DNA from: an uncultured Maribacter sp.
GTDB taxonomy: Bacteria > Bacteroidota > Bacteroidia > Flavobacteriales > Flavobacteriaceae
Length of the DNA: 64,000 bases
Reading direction: 5' to 3'
NCBI RefSeq assembly: GCF_947496775.1
Contig: NZ_CANMDU010000001.1
Coordinates: 62,001 to 126,000 of the forward strand
A program made the translations under genes and the position numbers. This document shows positions 4,649 to 34,984 of this stretch, piece by piece. Under the pieces are notes generated by a model. That model was not told the DNA's origin. It saw only the letters and a list, made by a program, of their open reading frames with translations, and searched no databases. The stretch's first letter is position 1. Each line of letters begins with the position of its first letter.

Positions 4649-5017
4649 ATGAAACAATTGTTGCTTGTATTTTTAGGTGGGGGCCTAGGTAGCGTTCTTA
4701 GGTATTATATATCCAAAACTTTCAACTCGTTTTTTCATAATATTTTTTTAGGCACATTTATAGTTAATATAATAGGATGCTTAGTCATTGGATTTGTATT
4801 AGGCCTGTCTTTTAAAAACAACCTCCTAACTCAAAATCAAACCCTATTATTAACCACTGGTTTTTGTGGAGGCTTCACTACTTTCTCGACTTTTGCTTTT
4901 GAAGGCCATTCTGTTCTAAAAACAGGAGATTTTTTATATTTTACAATCTACACCATATTAAGTATAATAATAGGTATCGCCTCTATTGCATTAGGGTTAT
5001 GGTTATCAAAACTATAA
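4649..5017 (+). CDS. crcB: Fluoride channel CrcB/Fluc
   Basis: This 122-residue four-helix membrane protein carries the family signatures GGGLGSVLRYYISK near the N-terminus, LGTFIVNIIGC with the pore Asn, and TTGFCGGFTTFSTFAFE with the Thr/Phe-rich pore motif. CrcB forms dual-topology dimers that export fluoride. Length is normal for the family. It follows a 59-residue membrane protein and is not preceded by any recognisable crcB-motif riboswitch. Confidence 0.92.
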   Translation: MKQLLLVFLGGGLGSVLRYYISKTFNSFFHNIFLGTFIVNIIGCLVIGFVLGLSFKNNLLTQNQTLLLTTGFCGGFTTFSTFAFEGHSVLKTGDFLYFTIYTILSIIIGIASIALGLWLSKL

Positions 5018-5233
5018 TCTAATTCCCTTTCTGCCCCTTCTACATATTATTTACTCTTTTTTGTCCAAAGAATACATCTAACAAAAGAAGATTTAGATGC
5101 GTACACCCTTCCATAATTTATCTATACCATCACAAAATTGAGGAATTTCTCAAAACAAATTCACACATTTTAAACTTATAAATTATAAAACCCATAATTT
5201 AACAGGGTATATTTATTAAAATAATAAAAATAT

Positions 5234-5269
5234 ACAACATACCCCCTATTTTTTTAGGGGGTATGTTGT
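5234..5269. promoter_or_regulatory. Perfect 15-bp inverted repeat just upstream of the glnK -7 box
   Basis: The arms 5234-5248 and 5255-5269 pair perfectly around a T6 loop; the core reads TACCCCCT...AGGGGGTA. The right arm ends 8 bases before the -7 box at 5277. This is the position expected for an operator or activator site. A terminator for crcB is less likely, because crcB ends more than 200 bases upstream and no long T run follows. A similar TACCCCCCT block sits at the same distance from the glnA -7 box. Confidence 0.6.
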
Positions 5270-5276
5270 TTTAACA

Positions 5277-5284
5277 TATATTTG
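5277..5284 (+). promoter_or_regulatory. -7 box of the glnK-amtB-porin unit
   Basis: TATATTTG matches TAnnTTTG exactly and is 24 bases before the glnK ATG. The expected -33 position falls inside the inverted repeat at 5234-5269, which has no TTG there. This suggests activator-dependent transcription. Confidence 0.55.
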
Positions 5285-5307
5285 ACCCCATAAACAACAA
5301 ATTAGTC

Positions 5308-5646
5308 ATGAAAAAAATCGAAGCAATTATCAGAAAATCAAAGTTTGATGATGTCAAAGAGGCACTACATCAAATAGAGGTTAACTTTTTTAGTTACTGG
5401 GATGTAACAGGAGTTGGCAACGAGAAACAAGGACATGTATACAGAGGTATCGCTTACAGTACAGCAGATATACAAAGAAGATACCTATCCATAGTTGTAT
5501 CCGACGATTTCTTACAAAAAACAGTGGATGCACTTTTAGAAGCTGCCTACACAGGTAATGTTGGTGATGGAAAAATATTTGTTTCTGACATCCAAGAAGG
5601 ATACAGAATTAGAACCAAAGAAAGCGGTCACGCAGGAATCAACTAA
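5308..5646 (+). CDS. glnK: PII nitrogen-signalling protein GlnK/GlnB
   Basis: The 112-residue protein starts with MKKIEAIIRKSKFDDVKEAL as PII proteins do. It has a T-loop around residues 37-55 with YRGIAY, where the second Tyr aligns with the Tyr51 uridylylation site of E. coli PII. It ends with the PII signature GDGKIFVSDIQEGYRIRT. PII senses ATP/ADP and 2-oxoglutarate, and here would gate the ammonium transporter encoded 32 bases downstream. The glnK-amtB pairing is widely conserved. The T-loop sequence after YRGIAY (STADIQRRY) is unlike the proteobacterial VDFLPK stretch, as in other Bacteroidota. Confidence 0.93.
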   Translation: MKKIEAIIRKSKFDDVKEALHQIEVNFFSYWDVTGVGNEKQGHVYRGIAYSTADIQRRYLSIVVSDDFLQKTVDALLEAAYTGNVGDGKIFVSDIQEGYRIRTKESGHAGIN

Positions 5647-5678: not shown

Positions 5679-6923
5679 ATGGACGCAGGATTATTTACAG
5701 CCAATAATGTATGGATGATGCTAGCAACAGCTCTAGTATTCTTTATGCATACCGGTTTCGCCTTTTTAGAAATAGGCTTAACAAGACAAAAAAACACAAT
5801 TAACATTTTATTTAAAAATATATTTATTATTACAGGAGGCCTTCTTCTTTATTACGCTTGGGGTTTTAACTTAATGTACCCAGGTTTTGAGGACGGAGAC
5901 ATGGGAATTCTTAAATTCTCTATGGACAGCTTTGGAATATCTGCTCCTGAAAATGGAATGACAGCTGATTACGCAGATGGTGGATACACATGGTGGACAG
6001 ATTTCTTATTCCAAGGAATGTTTGCAGCTACAGCGGCTACTATTGTATCTGGAGCTGTTGCGGAAAGAATGAAAATTGGTTCTTTCATGATTTTCACAGT
6101 TATCTATGTAGGTCTTGTATACCCTATAGTAGGAGCATGGAAATGGGGTGGTGGATTCTTAGACAACTGGGGATTCTATGACTTCGCAGGTTCTACATTA
6201 GTACACTCTGTTGGAGGATGGGCTGCATTAGTTGCTGTTGCATTATTAGGTTCTAGAATTGGAAAATTCGGAACCGATGGCAAACCAAAAGCAATACCAG
6301 GACACAACATACCTTTAGCAACTGCAGGAGTTCTTATTCTTTGGTTAGGATGGTTTGGATTCAACGGTGGATCTGTTCTTTCTGCCGACCCAGAATTAAC
6401 TTCTTTAGTACTAGTTACAACTAGTTTAGCTGCTGCTGCTGGTGGATTTGGGGCTTTTATCACCTCAACAATACTATACAAAAACTTAGATTTAACAATG
6501 TTCTTGAATGGTATTCTTGGAGGTTTAGTAGGTATTACTGCTGGTGCAGATTTAATGTCTCCTAACGAAGCTGTTGTTATAGGCTTTATAGCTGGTATCA
6601 TTATAGTATTTGGTGTTTCTTTAATAGACAAATTAAAATTTGATGATCCAGTAGGTGCTATTGCAGTACACTTAATATGTGGAACATGGGGAACATTAGC
6701 CGTAGGTCTTTTCGGTAGCATGGCTGGCTTTGACCAATTCCTAACGCAACTATACGGAGTATTAATAGTAGGTGCATTTTGCTTAATAACCTCAGGTATT
6801 ATTCTAGGCGTACTTAAAGCTACTTTAGGATTAAGAGTTTCTAAAGAAGAAGAATTGGAAGGATTAGATATTCATGAACACGGAATGGATGCTTATTCTG
6901 ACTTTAGAATGAACCAACACTAA
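5679..6923 (+). CDS. amtB: Ammonium transporter AmtB
   Basis: This 414-residue inner-membrane protein of the Amt/MEP/Rh family has about 11 hydrophobic segments. The twin pore histidines are His176 (LVHSVGGWAALV) and His331 (AVHLICGTWGT). The family signature around residues 205-230 (AIPGHNIPLATAGVLILWLGW-like) is present. The C-terminal cytoplasmic tail ends with GLDIHEHGMDAY, the segment that contacts GlnK. It is the second gene of the glnK-amtB-porin unit and is followed by a hairpin. Confidence 0.95.
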   Translation: MDAGLFTANNVWMMLATALVFFMHTGFAFLEIGLTRQKNTINILFKNIFIITGGLLLYYAWGFNLMYPGFEDGDMGILKFSMDSFGISAPENGMTADYADGGYTWWTDFLFQGMFAATAATIVSGAVAERMKIGSFMIFTVIYVGLVYPIVGAWKWGGGFLDNWGFYDFAGSTLVHSVGGWAALVAVALLGSRIGKFGTDGKPKAIPGHNIPLATAGVLILWLGWFGFNGGSVLSADPELTSLVLVTTSLAAAAGGFGAFITSTILYKNLDLTMFLNGILGGLVGITAGADLMSPNEAVVIGFIAGIIIVFGVSLIDKLKFDDPVGAIAVHLICGTWGTLAVGLFGSMAGFDQFLTQLYGVLIVGAFCLITSGIILGVLKATLGLRVSKEEELEGLDIHEHGMDAYSDFRMNQH

Positions 6924-11973: not shown

Positions 11974-12426
11974 TTACAATTTTGTTTTCCCAACAGGTGC
12001 ATTTGTTACCACATTCGAAAGTATAATATGTGTTCTTGTTTCTCCATACTGTATCAATCTATCAATAAACTGCTCCAGATGAAATTGATCTTTCAAAACT
12101 ACTTCCATAACAATATTCTCGTTTCCAGTAATCCTATAACAATTGACTACTTCTTCGAACTTAGGAATCACCGCTAAAAATGGTTTTAATTTCCCCATAA
12201 AAGCTTTTAAAGTAATTATTGCTTTTAATTGATGCCCCGTTAAGGCATGAGAAACTTTAGCATTATACCCCTCAATAATTCCTATATCCTCCATCTTCTT
12301 AACACGCTCCGCAACTGCCGGAGCTGTAAGTCCTATTTTACGTCCAATGGTAGCATATGATTCTCTAGCATTTTCTTGTAAAAAATGAAGTATTTTCCAG
12401 TTAAGTTCGTCTATTTTTGTTTTCAA
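11974..12426 (-). CDS. Lrp/AsnC-family transcriptional regulator
   Basis: This 150-residue regulator has an N-terminal winged helix-turn-helix (residues 5-60: DELNWKILHFLQENARESYATIGRKIGLTAPAV-type) and a C-terminal RAM effector-binding domain (about residues 65-150). It has the normal length and order for the family, which usually responds to amino acids. It diverges from the small helical-protein gene that starts near 12544. Target genes cannot be told from the sequence, though self-regulation is common. Confidence 0.92.
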   Translation of the reverse strand: MKTKIDELNWKILHFLQENARESYATIGRKIGLTAPAVAERVKKMEDIGIIEGYNAKVSHALTGHQLKAIITLKAFMGKLKPFLAVIPKFEEVVNCYRITGNENIVMEVVLKDQFHLEQFIDRLIQYGETRTHIILSNVVTNAPVGKTKL

Positions 12427-22678: not shown

Positions 22679-24865
22679 TTATTTAATGAACAACAACTCT
22701 CTATACTTAGTTAATGGCCATAATTGATTGTCTATTAATTGCTCTAACTTATCGCAATGGTATCTAATTTCATCAAAATAAGGCTTCACATTTTCACAAT
22801 AAGCATTTGCTTTTTTAGCACTTTCCTTTAGCTTATTTGCTTTTTTCCGTGCATCGGTCATATTATCTGTCAACTTTTTAAGAGAAACCATATGTTCGGC
22901 AATTTCTTCTAAAATAGTAAGTTGTCCATCTGCTAATTTCTTATGTGCTGCTCCATAAATATCTTTTAAACCTATAACATTTTGCATTAGTTTATTTTGA
23001 TATTCTATCGCAGCGGGTATTATATGATTATACACCAGCTCATTTAAAACTCTACCCTCAATTTGTAAGTGTAAAATATAAGTATCTAGCTCTACCTCTT
23101 GTCTTGCCTTTACCTCTACCTCACTCATTACTTTAGTAACTTTAAAAAGCTCTAAAGTTTCTTTTTTAGTAAGTACTTTTAATGCCTCAGGAGTAGTTTT
23201 GTTATTGCTTAATTTTCTTCTTTTCGCCTCCTTTTCCCAATCTTCACTGTACCCGTCTCCATCAAAACGAATTCGTTTTGATGTCTTTATATACTCTCTT
23301 AAAACGTTAAAAATTGCTTCATCCTTCTTAAGACTCTTTTTATCAACAAGAGCATCTACCTCTTTTTTAAAGTCTCTCAATTGTTTTGCTACAATAGTAT
23401 TTATTATAGTCATTGGTTTCGCACAATTGGTTTTAGAACCAACCCCACGCATTTCGAATTTATTCCCTGTAAAAGCAAAAGGAGAAGTTCTATTACGGTC
23501 GGTGTTATCTAGTAAAATTTCTGGTATTTTACCAACAACATTAAGCTTTAATTCCGTTTTTTCTTCTGGAGAAAGTTTTCCTTGCGAAACCCCCTCTAGC
23601 TCATCTAAAACCCTACTTAGCTGAGACCCTACGAATATCGAAAATATTGCTGGCGGAGCTTCGTTTGCTCCTAATCTATGATCATTACTTGCCGATGCAA
23701 TAGAAGATCGTAACAATTCCTCATACGTATCTACCGCTTTAATGGTATTTACAAAAAAGGTTAAAAATTGTAGGTTTTTCATTGGGGTACTACCTGGACT
23801 AAGAAGATTAACGCCAGTATCTGTAGCTAAAGACCAATTATTATGCTTGCCCGAACCATTTATATCTGCAAAAGGTTTCTCATGAAAAAGTACTTTAAAC
23901 CCATGTTTATCGGCTACTTTCTCCATTACATCCATCAGTAAAAGATTGTGATCTATCGCTAAATTTGCCTCTTCAAAAACCGGAGCCAATTCAAACTGAT
24001 TTGGTGCAACCTCATTATGTCTGGTTTTTACAGGTATGCCTAATTTAGTACACTCCTGTTCCAATTCGCTCATAAAACCTAAAACTCTATTAGGAATTAC
24101 ACCAAAATAATGGTCATCTAACTGTTGGCCTTTTGCAGCAGTATGGCCTATTAATGTTCTTCCTGTTAAAACAATATCTAATCTAGAATGCGCTAGAGCT
24201 TTATCTATTAAAAAGTACTCTTGTTCCCAGCCTAATGTAGCATTAACCTTAGCCACAGTTTTATCAAAATATTTAGCCACAGCAGTAGCTGCCTCGTCTA
24301 CGGCATGTAGTGCTCTTAATAAAGGAGCTTTATTATCTAAAGCCTCTCCTGTGTAAGACACAAAAACGGTTGGAATACATAGTGTAGTACCATATATAAA
24401 TGCTGGAGATGTGGGATCCCATGCAGTGTAACCACGAGCTTCAAAAGTATTTCTTATTCCTCCACTAGGAAAACTAGAAGCATCTGGTTCTTGCTGTACC
24501 AATTGTCCTCCTCCAAATTTTTCCAAAGCAGTTCCATCTGGCAATAAATCAAAAAAAGCATCATGTTTTTCTGCCGTACTACCTGTTAAAGGCTGAAACC
24601 AATGCGTATAATGTGTTGCCCCCATAGATATTGCCCAAGCTTTCATGGCTTCTGCAACTTGGTCTGCAATCTTCCTATCTATTTTTGTTCCAGAAAAAAT
24701 AGCTCCTTGCACACTTTCTAAAGCATCCTTGGTAAGATATTGCAACATTTTATGTTCATTAAAAACATTTGCACAAAATAACTCAGACCTTCTTCCACTC
24801 TCTTCTATCGTTTTACTCTCTCTTTTTGCACTTTCTGAAATTGCTTCAAATCGAATTTTAGACAT
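22679..24865 (-). CDS. glnN: Glutamine synthetase type III
   Basis: This 728-residue ATP-dependent enzyme forms glutamine from glutamate and ammonia. Family features include the N-terminal domain with ATHYTHWFQPLTGSTAEKHD, the catalytic EQEYFLID segment near residue 219, the ammonia-site region FEEANLAIDHN, HEKPFADINGSGKHNNWS with its NGSGKH metal/ATP motif, and a long helical C-terminal extension. Type III enzymes are dodecamers typical of Bacteroidota and cyanobacteria. The gene diverges from a type II-like glutamine synthetase, with 204 bases between the starts. A minus-strand -7 box (CAAAATTA on plus, 24907-24914) fits its promoter. Confidence 0.96.
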   Translation of the reverse strand: MSKIRFEAISESAKRESKTIEESGRRSELFCANVFNEHKMLQYLTKDALESVQGAIFSGTKIDRKIADQVAEAMKAWAISMGATHYTHWFQPLTGSTAEKHDAFFDLLPDGTALEKFGGGQLVQQEPDASSFPSGGIRNTFEARGYTAWDPTSPAFIYGTTLCIPTVFVSYTGEALDNKAPLLRALHAVDEAATAVAKYFDKTVAKVNATLGWEQEYFLIDKALAHSRLDIVLTGRTLIGHTAAKGQQLDDHYFGVIPNRVLGFMSELEQECTKLGIPVKTRHNEVAPNQFELAPVFEEANLAIDHNLLLMDVMEKVADKHGFKVLFHEKPFADINGSGKHNNWSLATDTGVNLLSPGSTPMKNLQFLTFFVNTIKAVDTYEELLRSSIASASNDHRLGANEAPPAIFSIFVGSQLSRVLDELEGVSQGKLSPEEKTELKLNVVGKIPEILLDNTDRNRTSPFAFTGNKFEMRGVGSKTNCAKPMTIINTIVAKQLRDFKKEVDALVDKKSLKKDEAIFNVLREYIKTSKRIRFDGDGYSEDWEKEAKRRKLSNNKTTPEALKVLTKKETLELFKVTKVMSEVEVKARQEVELDTYILHLQIEGRVLNELVYNHIIPAAIEYQNKLMQNVIGLKDIYGAAHKKLADGQLTILEEIAEHMVSLKKLTDNMTDARKKANKLKESAKKANAYCENVKPYFDEIRYHCDKLEQLIDNQLWPLTKYRELLFIK

Positions 24866-24906
24866 AATTTCTTGTTCTAAATAAATAATTGATTTTAAAA
24901 ATATAT

Positions 24907-24914
24907 CAAAATTA
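24907..24914 (-). promoter_or_regulatory. -7 box of the glutamine synthetase III gene
   Basis: On the minus strand this reads TAATTTTG, a perfect TAnnTTTG, 41 bases before the start codon. Upstream, at 24943-24960, lies a partial dyad CCCCT...AGGG that resembles the glnK inverted repeat. Confidence 0.45.
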
Positions 24915-24992
24915 CTATCAAAAATTAGATATTTAACAATTTCCCCTGTAAAAATTAGGGCAAAAAGAAAAAATACATACTTTCAACAGATT

Positions 24993-25037
24993 TACCCCCC
25001 TGAAATTTAGAAGATAAGGACAAAAAACATATTTTTG
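24993..25037 (+). promoter_or_regulatory. glnA promoter with TACCCCCCT block
   Basis: TATTTTTG at 25030-25037 matches the -7 box, 32 bases before the ATG. TACCCCCCT at 24993-25001 ends 29 bases upstream of the box. In the glnK promoter, TACCCCCT ends 30 bases upstream of its box. The equal placement suggests a common regulator for nitrogen genes. Confidence 0.5.
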
Positions 25038-25069
25038 TTCGAATCTAAAAGAATTACAATAATAATATT

Positions 25070-26083
25070 ATGGCAAAAATTAAATTAGAATACCTTTGGT
25101 TAGATGGTTATAAGCCAACTCAAAATTTGAGAAGTAAAACTAAGGTAGAAGAGCATGAAAACTTCCAAGGTACAATAGAAGAATTAGGAAACTGGTCTTT
25201 CGATGGTTCATCAACAAAACAAGCTTCTGGAGGAGCCTCTGATTGTATTTTAAAGCCTGTTGCTATCTACCCAGATCCAGCTCGTATCAATGGATATTTA
25301 GTAATGACTGAAGTATTGAGTGCCGATGGAACTCCACATGAGTCTAATGGTCGTGCTACTATTGAAGATGATGATAACGATTTCTGGTTCGGTTTTGAGC
25401 AAGAATACTTTATCATGGATAGAAAAACTCAATTACCTTTAGGATTCCCTATCGGTGGTTACCCAGGACCTCAAGGTATGTACTACTGTTCTGTTGGTGG
25501 AAAAAACACTTACGGAAGAGACTTCGTAGAAGAGCATGCTAACTTATGTATTGATGCTGGATTAAACTTTGAAGGAATTAACCAAGAAGTTGCATCTGGA
25601 CAATGGGAATTCCAATTGTTTGCTAAAGGAGCTAAGAAAGCTGGCGATGAAATTTGGATTGCTAGATATTTATTAGACCGTTTAACAGAAAAGTACGGAT
25701 GGTACATTGAATACCACCCAAAACCAATCAAAGGAGACTGGAATGGTTCTGGAATGCACGCTAACTTCTCAAATTCAATCTTGAGAGAATGTGGTTCTAA
25801 AGAAAAGTACGCTGAAATCTGTGAAGCTTTCCGTCCTGTAACTAAAGAACACATTGAAGTTTATGGAGAGTATAACGAGCAACGTTTAACTGGTGATCAC
25901 GAAACTGCTTCTATTAAAGATTTCTCTTGGGGTGTTTCTGATAGAGGAGCTTCTATTCGTATTCCAATTATCGCTGTAGAAAAAGGATATAAAGGATGGT
26001 TAGAAGATCGTCGTCCAGCTTCAAACGGAGACCCATACAAAATTGCTGCAAGAATTATCAAAACTGTTAAACCAGTTAAATAA
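25070..26083 (+). CDS. glnA: Glutamine synthetase, type II-like (beta-Grasp)
   Basis: The 337-residue enzyme is much shorter than type I and resembles the eukaryotic type II form. Visible motifs are EYLWLDGYKPTQNLRSKT at the start, LGNWSFDGSSTKQASGG, the catalytic FGFEQEYFIMD near residue 107, NFEGINQEVASGQWEFQ, and GDWNGSGMHANFS with the ATP/metal-binding NGSGMH. The ending KIAARIIKTVKP completes the domain. It diverges from the type III enzyme, so the organism has two synthetases encoded back to back. A 17-bp terminator follows. Confidence 0.94.
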   Translation: MAKIKLEYLWLDGYKPTQNLRSKTKVEEHENFQGTIEELGNWSFDGSSTKQASGGASDCILKPVAIYPDPARINGYLVMTEVLSADGTPHESNGRATIEDDDNDFWFGFEQEYFIMDRKTQLPLGFPIGGYPGPQGMYYCSVGGKNTYGRDFVEEHANLCIDAGLNFEGINQEVASGQWEFQLFAKGAKKAGDEIWIARYLLDRLTEKYGWYIEYHPKPIKGDWNGSGMHANFSNSILRECGSKEKYAEICEAFRPVTKEHIEVYGEYNEQRLTGDHETASIKDFSWGVSDRGASIRIPIIAVEKGYKGWLEDRRPASNGDPYKIAARIIKTVKPVK

Positions 26084-33029: not shown

Positions 33030-34280
33030 ATGAGAACATCAAACACATTTGCAATCCTTTTTTGGGCATACTCTACTCGTGCCAAAAATAACCTAACCGG
33101 TATGTACGCCAGAATTACAGTAAATGGAAAAAAAGTCAACATTAGCTTAAAACAGCAAGTTGATGTTAGAGTATGGGATTCAAAAAGACAGCGAGCAAAA
33201 GGGAACAGTGAAACGACAAGGGCTTTAAATTCTTATTTAGACCAAGTTCATGCACAGCTCGTGCAACTTTATCAAGATTTAAAATTTAAAGGGCAATTAA
33301 TTACCGCTGAGTTAATCAAGGCTGAATATTTAGGTGAAAGTGATAATTCTAAAACTCTTCAAAACCTTCTTGAATATCACAACAAAAAAACTGAAAAAAC
33401 ATTAGCCGTCGGAACCTTGAGGAATTTTGGAGTAACTGAAGGATACCTTAACAAGTATTTAAACAATGTATTAAATACTTCAGATATTTTTTTGAAAGAA
33501 CTCAACTACAAATTTATTTGCGATTTTGCTAATTTTCTAATTTGCTTTTGGCCTAAGGGACACCCCAAAGCAATGAGCAATAATACGGTTATGAAACATA
33601 TTCAAAGGTTTCGAAAAATCATAACTCTTGGTTATCACATAGAATGGATAGACAAAGATCCCTTTGTTAGGTGGAAACCTACTTATGAAAAAAGAGAACG
33701 CCCGTTTTTAACTGAAAACGAATTATCCAATATCGAAACCTATAATTTCTTAATTGCAAGACTTGAAAGAGTACGGGACTTATTTGTTTTTAGCTGCTAT
33801 ACAGGTATTGCCTATGTTGACTTAATGAGCTTATCTAATGATAATATTATCAAAGGTATTGATGGCAATGATTGGATATTTACAAATCGTCAAAAAACCA
33901 AGTCTCCTGTAAAAATACCCTTGCTCGCTAAAGCTCGAATACTAATAGATAAGTATCACAACCATCCAATGACACAAATTACAGAAACATTGTTTCCAGT
34001 AATTACGAATGAAAAAGTAAATTTTTATCTCAAAGAGATTGCAAAAGCAGTTGGCCTAAAAAAAAATCTTACTTTCCATATGGCTAGACATACGTTTGCC
34101 ACAACTGTAACCTTAAGTAATGGTGTTCCCATAGAGACCGTCTCTAAATTGTTAGGGCATTCAAAAATTGCATCTACACAAATATATGCAAGAGTAGTGG
34201 AGAGAAAAGTAAGTGAGGACATGCAGACACTAATGAATAAGATAAATATCCCCAACTTTCTTAAAGAAAAACAGAATTAG
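33030..34280 (+). CDS. Tyrosine recombinase/integrase of a mobile element
   Basis: The 416-residue site-specific recombinase has an N-terminal arm-binding domain (about residues 1-100), a SAM-like core-binding domain (about 110-210) and a C-terminal catalytic domain. The catalytic region shows VFSCYTGIAYVDLMSLS (box I), the Lys-containing strand TNRQKTKSPVKIPL, HMARHTFATTVTLSNG (HxxR), LLGHSKIASTQIYARV (box II with the nucleophile Tyr). This is the Bacteroidota conjugative-element type. It looks complete. It reads away from tRNA-Arg, 234 bases downstream of it, in the orientation usual for tRNA-integrated elements. Confidence 0.93.
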   Translation: MRTSNTFAILFWAYSTRAKNNLTGMYARITVNGKKVNISLKQQVDVRVWDSKRQRAKGNSETTRALNSYLDQVHAQLVQLYQDLKFKGQLITAELIKAEYLGESDNSKTLQNLLEYHNKKTEKTLAVGTLRNFGVTEGYLNKYLNNVLNTSDIFLKELNYKFICDFANFLICFWPKGHPKAMSNNTVMKHIQRFRKIITLGYHIEWIDKDPFVRWKPTYEKRERPFLTENELSNIETYNFLIARLERVRDLFVFSCYTGIAYVDLMSLSNDNIIKGIDGNDWIFTNRQKTKSPVKIPLLAKARILIDKYHNHPMTQITETLFPVITNEKVNFYLKEIAKAVGLKKNLTFHMARHTFATTVTLSNGVPIETVSKLLGHSKIASTQIYARVVERKVSEDMQTLMNKINIPNFLKEKQN

Positions 34281-34321
34281 ATATTTTGAAATGCTTCTGA
34301 GAGAATCAGAAGCATTTTTTT

Positions 34322-34984
34322 TCAAAGCTTAGAATTCAAAACCACCTTTCTACTCACAATAATATGGATGTGACTTTGGTTGCCATCCTTTTGCATGCCT
34401 TGAACAATCCGCTTTCCGTTTTGTTGGTGTGGTGCTTCCTTTTCCAATCTGGCGATTTTGCTTTCTATTTTTTTGATATCCCCAATAGAAACGCCTTGTC
34501 TTATCTCTCTTAGTGCGTTTTTAAGCTGCAATATTTTTGTAGCATACGGTTGGTTTTCTTGTATTTGCTTATCCGTTCCTTTATAAGTGCGCACTTGTTC
34601 TATTTTACCATAGTATTTAATATCCTCTACCATTACAGCTCGTCCTTCTATCTAGCGGTTAAAAGCTTTAGCGTAATCTTTCATCAATTCTCGTGTATAC
34701 GCTTTTAATTCCGTTTTAGAATCTTGTAAATGTTGGAGTTCCCTTTGGCTTGGATTAATCGTAATGGAATAAAACTTAGGTTCCGTTTTCTTTAGTTTTG
34801 CCGTGTTACCATCTATTTCTTTTATGACTTCTGCAGCTGTAATTTCTTCTCCATATTGATTAAAAAAATGTTCGTAATCCCCTATCGCCTTTTCTTCGTT
34901 TTCTTTTTCTAGATAGGCAACAAAATCTCCTGCACTCTGTGCATAGTTTCCGCCTGTTTTATGTGGTGATATAGTAATATACAT
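34322..34984 (-). pseudogene. Broken relaxase/mobilization gene (DUF5712 MobB-like)
   Basis: The reading frame opens at ATG 34984 with MYITISPHKTGGNYAQSAGD, the typical start of Bacteroidota DUF5712 mobilization relaxases. It continues through HFFNQYGEEITAAEV to KAFNR, where an in-frame TAG (34652-34654) stops it. The same frame then continues without shift as IEGRAV, MVEDIKYYGKIEQ, KIARLEKEAPHQQNGKRIVQG and the His-rich relaxase motif SHIHIIVSRK, ending soon after at 34322. Relatives extend well beyond this motif, so the 3' end is also lost. Mobilization by this protein is unlikely. It follows the BfmA-like gene by one base. Confidence 0.85.

Follow-up and report, generated by a model that had tools for sequence, protein, structure and literature searches.

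The promoters of the ammonium-assimilation genes glnK and glnA, both located in the window (the whole 64,000-nt stretch of uncultured Maribacter sp. DNA analysed here), carry a short C-rich block at almost the same distance from a -7 box of the TAnnTTTG type (Table 1), which raises the question of whether a common regulator acts on both. An earlier note on this DNA had proposed so, taking TACCCCC as the shared element, its equal placement as beyond chance, and the regulator as undescribed. The distances were re-measured and are as given there: the gap between the end of the block and the -7 T is 30 nt at glnK and 29 nt at glnA, and 35 nt separate the first C of the block from the -7 T in both. 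TACCCCC occurs four times on the plus strand of the window and its complement once, where it forms the right-hand arm of the dyad at glnK described below; TAnnTTTG occurs 54 times on the plus strand, the boxes at 5277 and 25030 being the sole ones in 5200-5310 and 24850-25080, respectively. Taken by itself, the coincidence between two promoters is suggestive at most; it can be placed beyond chance because each of the two promoters has a second dyad, 52.5-53 bp further upstream, and because orthologous promoters conserve the layout.

Table 1. Features of the glnK and glnA/GSIII promoter regions, in window coordinates.
Feature	Position	Strand	Centre	Remarks
glnK (P-II protein)	5308..5646	+		followed by amtB, 5679-6923
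C-rich block of glnK, TACCCCCT	5240-5247
glnK distal dyad, ACCCATAATTTAACAGGGT	5190..5208		5199	counterparts in relatives
glnK proximal dyad, TACCCCCTATTTTTTTAGGGGGTA	5240..5263		5251.5	core of inverted repeat 5234-5269
glnK -7 box, TATATTTG (TAnnTTTG type)	5277..5284	+		proximal dyad centre 25.5 nt away
GSIII-type glutamine synthetase	22679..24865	-		divergent from glnA
Candidate GSIII -7 box, TAATTTTG	24907..24914	-		exact TAnnTTTG, sequence match alone; T at 24914
Dyad TCCCCTGTAAAAATTAGGGC	24942..24961		24951.5	distal for glnA, proximal for divergent GSIII
C-rich block of glnA, TACCCCCCT	24993-25001
glnA proximal site, TACCCCCCTGAAATTTAGAAGATA	24993..25016		25004.5	left arm intact, right arm degenerate
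glnA -7 box, TATTTTTG (TAnnTTTG type)	25030..25037	+		proximal site centre 25.5 nt away
glnA, GSII-type glutamine synthetase	25070..26083	+		best NCBIfam model GlnII, score below cut-off

The unit is not the TACCCCC block but a dyad of the form ACCCC-AT-rich-GGGGT, present twice per promoter with 52-53 bp between the copies (52.5 bp between the two centres at glnK, 53 bp at glnA). The glnK block is the left arm of TACCCCCT-N8-AGGGGGTA and is contained, as one arm, in a perfect 15-bp inverted repeat (5234-5248/5255-5269) that the first reading had missed. On the GSIII side of the divergent region, the CCCCT...AGGG at 24943-24960 was correctly placed by the earlier note, although what had been called a partial dyad is one of the two sites, the distal one of glnA; the centre of this common dyad lies 37.5 nt from the T of the candidate GSIII -7 box. 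Across 258 distinct dyad strings the consensus is approximately ACCCCTAAAAATTTAGGGGT, with a CCC-GGG gap of 10-12 nt in most. Elsewhere in the window, at 33030-34984, a phage-type integrase gene is followed by short mobilisation-like ORFs, which suggests an integrated element (the integrase alone was checked).

The glnK element might instead be an RNA hairpin, or the intrinsic terminator of the upstream gene, with the likeness at glnA due to chance. In our Maribacter sequence it can indeed form a strong hairpin (-26.5 kcal/mol, z -7.05) with a short T run behind it, but the upstream ORF has its end at 5017, at a distance of more than 200 nt. Folding is absent at the proximal site of glnA (z 0.24) and weak at both distal sites (z -0.43 and -1.45). 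Among 15 glnK promoters, the pairs running out from the CCC/GGG core number 12 in our own sequence alone, 7-9 in four promoters (9 in three, 7 in one) and 3-5 in ten (5 in one, 4 in three, 3 in six); the core letters are kept and the outer hairpin arms are not. The conserved stem with a T run that an intrinsic terminator would place where the upstream gene ends was not found at glnK, and the CCC/GGG core also occurs at the alanine dehydrogenase gene (ald) and at GSIII, with fixed spacing to the -7 box. Since the core letters are kept while the stem is not, and since the glnA proximal site has no fold, the element most likely acts as DNA rather than RNA, and a hairpin or terminator is highly improbable.

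With 0 mismatches, TACCCCCT-N8-AGGGGGTA is a single-copy sequence in the 3.96-Mb genome, at glnK; genome-wide, its 3-mismatch matches equal those of the control (5 vs 5), L003 lying within an ORF. The looser pattern ACCCCN{8,12}GGGKT yielded 10 distinct loci, L071/L072 and L076 among them, of which seven were examined. Six of these seven (L068, L069, L070, L073, L075, and L077) overlap ORFs, and the intergenic one is a dyad before ald (G000:C4:17661-17680, minus strand, L074) with a second ACCCC 53 bp on, a third promoter with the layout, unlinked to glnK and glnA. The two-dyad pattern has 11 distinct loci in this genome, namely glnK, glnA, ald, and eight inside ORFs, with 8 and 8 rows versus 3 and 2 for its reversed control. 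The single-dyad pattern showed no clear genome-wide enrichment over its reversed control, and single-dyad scans were dropped as a genome-wide test because of the many control matches. The same palindrome precedes the functionally linked genes glnK, glnA/GSIII, and ald in one genome. It does not extend to gltBD, which the earlier note had suggested checking: inspection by eye of the gltB promoter in this one genome showed that the TATTTTTG box there is not preceded by the layout. A terminator-like stem, TACCCCTTACATTTTAGGGTA, that resembles the operator core follows the preceding gene, some 320 nt before gltB (L236).

We scored the layout in relatives as CCC-N8-12-GGG-N31-37-CCC within 300 nt before the gene. 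It was found at 16 of 30 glnK loci, a set in which three members (L034-L036) are weak or partial homologues, and at 22 of 30 GSII glnA loci, against shuffle means of 0.135 and 0.035, respectively (200 shuffles each). The corresponding figures are 51/80 for named glnA loci (shuffle mean 0.02, 50 shuffles) and 12/22 for ald (0.09, 200 shuffles), the latter set deriving from 57 genomes with an ald match, of which the 23 close ones were taken, less L145, whose start is missing. These counts are non-independent because the loci are phylogenetically related and the sets overlap partly, the two glnA sets having L038/L156, L041/L205, L043/L221, and L039/L169 on common contigs. As background, 140 unrelated Lrp/MerR/Crp loci contained 10 layout starts in 655,836 strand-bases, or 0.0046 per 300 nt. 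When a TAnnTTT[GA] box at 24-33 nt was also required, 15 glnK, 20 glnA, 26 named glnA, and 0 ald loci were retained, and none in the shuffles. The layout is missing at 14/30 glnK and 8/30 glnA loci; in some glnK loci another gene lies closely upstream. Alignment A1 comprises 33 promoters and is an illustration, not a test, because its rows were chosen for showing the layout. Rather than being absent from orthologous promoters or standing there at random distances, the element and its TAnnTTTG spacing recur at the glnK and glnA genes of relatives.

The dyad also accompanies GSIII in genomes devoid of GSII. Of 20 such genomes, 12 have a strict AT-rich dyad before GSIII, with families f5, f7, f9, and f13 represented among them, and the two-dyad layout is present in 4 on the gene strand and in 9 on either strand. 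In G045 (family f10, 92% complete), both dyads are present at GSIII, 53 bp apart and followed by the -7 T at 26.5 nt, whereas the GSIII region of G030 has no CCCC and no GGGG anywhere. Before one or more of glnK, glnA, ald, and GSIII, the strict test finds a dyad in 36 of 52 genomes; this test excludes L035 and L036, and misses G045 and G014, which other scoring finds dyad-bearing. Several of the 16 dyad-negative genomes are small; G009, G026, and others are not.

The distance between dyad centre and -7 T, measured with the exact TAnnTTTG unless stated otherwise, clusters at a few values. The 20 dyad/-7 pairs at glnK are split evenly between 26 nt (10 pairs) and 78-80 nt (10 pairs), the proximal centre standing at 26 nt in every one of the 10 scorable promoters. 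At glnA, 19 of 20 pairs fall at 77-78 nt and, in the second set, 28 of 31 at 76-79 nt. For ald, 8 of 12 pairs fall at 90-91 nt using [CT]AnnTTTG, a promoter box that is a guess because the strict TAnnTTTG scores 0/22. GSIII is more variable: in genomes without GSII, 5 of 12 pairs are at 36-37 nt and 3 at 78-79 nt, the others at 10, 25, and 58 nt. Three control octamers gave 0-10 pairs per set, without these spacing peaks. The steps from 26 to 37 nt and from 78 to 90 nt correspond to about one helical turn, and that from 26 to 78 nt to five turns. According to PMC9723704, TAnnTTTG is the -7 box of sigma-A and spans -12 to -5; with the -7 T at -12, the proximal centre falls at about -38, the distal one at about -90, and the GSIII-type position at about -49. 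The fixed distance from block to -7 box might also be expected if TACCCCC belonged to the core promoter, say as the -35 element recognised by an alternative sigma factor. We find this hardly credible, as the element is a dyad that is repeated 52-53 bp upstream and placed at either 26 or ~37 nt, and the -7 box is of the sigma-A type (PMC9723704).

Three things were observed directly: the layout, its conservation, and a constant spacing from the -7 box. On these sequence grounds, we consider it likely that the dyads are tandem palindromic operators of one dimeric ammonium-assimilation regulator, which would activate the glnK-amtB, GSII glnA, GSIII, and ald promoters. The same dimer would occupy both operators, five helical turns (52-53 bp) apart; from the promoter-proximal one, centred at about -38, it would touch RNA polymerase, and the distal one may add co-operative binding or a second contact. 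Activation of glnK, glnA, and ald would take place under nitrogen limitation, and in the common glnA-GSIII region a single operator pair could serve both divergent promoters.

The same operator could also bind a repressor that keeps RNA polymerase out under nitrogen excess by occupying the -33 region, the distal site then serving for co-operativity or looping. The proximal dyad does overlap the expected -33 region and, at GSIII genes divergent from glnA (78 named loci), the dyad is centred 9 nt from the -7 box in 13 of 54 pairs, the rest being at 35-38, 48, 100 nt, and elsewhere. In these Polaribacter-type loci (L155, L157, L160, and similar), the dyad ends right at the GSIII TAnnTTTG box, possibly a different use of the site, perhaps repression. 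Repressor sites usually drift more, however, and the near-fixed, helically phased distances to the -7 box (26, ~37, 78, and ~90 nt) are more typical of contact with the polymerase, from which we infer that activation is favoured; repression as the general mode appears rather unlikely.

Several known systems share traits with this putative activator. In cyanobacterial nitrogen control, NtcA, with CRP-type class II-III activation, recognises GTA-N8-TAC centred at -41.5. As here, palindromes occur at nitrogen genes, one immediately before the promoter and another about five turns of the helix farther upstream, but the half-site here is ACCCC/GGGGT, with ~15 bp between half-site centres, and the centre is at about -38. 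HTH_Crp_2 (PF13545) is present in at least 53 of 60 genomes and Crp/Fnr presence seemed to correlate with the operator among the matches listed, yet G045, with the full layout at GSIII, has no HTH_Crp_2 among these matches. A tree of 80 Crp-like proteins contained no clade tracking the operator: a 17-genome clade holds our own 229-aa L346, and the one Crp protein that G044 and G057 each possess lies outside it. GlnR and TnrA of Bacillus are short MerR-like proteins that bind TGTNA-N7-TNACA, unlike the ACCCCT...AGGGGT consensus found here; the likenesses are the nitrogen genes, the paired operators, and a short MerR without effector domain that is near-universal in Flavobacteriales. As MerR (PF13411) is found in 59 of 60 genomes, operator-less ones too, its presence is uninformative. 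The short MerR-like protein of our genome (L332, 109 aa) resembles, by equal length and family, MliR of Bizionia, a 109-aa MerR-like protein with iron-related effects that has asparagine synthetase B among its strongly lowered transcripts and for which the accessible part of the source names no nitrogen-assimilation target (PMC9478572). It is unlikely to be the regulator.

Sigma-54 activators (PF00158, a search that also catches other AAA proteins) are present in 60/60 genomes. The NtrC box likewise consists of G/C half-sites flanking a short spacer at glnA and glnK genes, and NtrC/sigma-54 promoters are of the -24/-12 type; those of glnK and glnA here carry the sigma-A TAnnTTTG at conserved spacing. 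The sigma-54 set of F. psychrophilum is described as concerning mainly envelope stress, protein quality control, and gliding (PMC9723704). Close to ald, our genome (L237:6086-6556) and 5 of 10 relatives' ald regions contain a gene of the Lrp/AsnC family. AldR is an Lrp/AsnC-type ald regulator, and such regulators resemble the present case in ald control, an AT-rich palindrome, and the conserved Lrp/AsnC gene near ald. This protein is unlikely to be the regulator and was set aside because a close orthologue is missing from several operator-bearing genomes, with no Lrp match in G045 and no orthologue at E <= 1e-30 in G014, G042, and G048. The window contains a second Lrp/AsnC-family regulator gene at 11974-12426. 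Across the 60 genomes, none of PF13411, PF13545 (among the matches listed), and PF00158 discriminates operator bearers, and no obvious regulator gene was found in the neighbourhoods of the 80 named glnA loci. Of these loci (L153-L232), 19 have a gene for a BlaI/MecI-like protein close to glnA and 17 have one for an M56-like membrane protein (identities by eye). The common regulator proposed earlier thus gains from the recurrence of the element at glnK, glnA, and ald and from its conservation in relatives, and is still something that we infer since the candidate search gave no protein.

The open-access literature that we searched holds no description of this operator, in agreement with its having been called undescribed. 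We put forward tentatively, as an idea with somewhat less than even chances, that Flavobacteriales possess a nitrogen regulator outside NtrC, NtcA, GlnR/TnrA, and AmtR, which occupies two ACCCC-N10-GGGGT sites in each promoter, separated by whole helical turns, that its targets are glnK-amtB, both glutamine synthetases, and ald, and that it may be at least as old as the ancestor of several families of the order. Flavobacteria are major marine degraders of algal material, and we found no description in the open-access literature of how their ammonium uptake and glutamine synthesis are controlled. With a precisely defined operator and four target genes, the missing regulator can be sought directly, and nitrogen control elsewhere in the group can be read from genomes with the operator as a signature.
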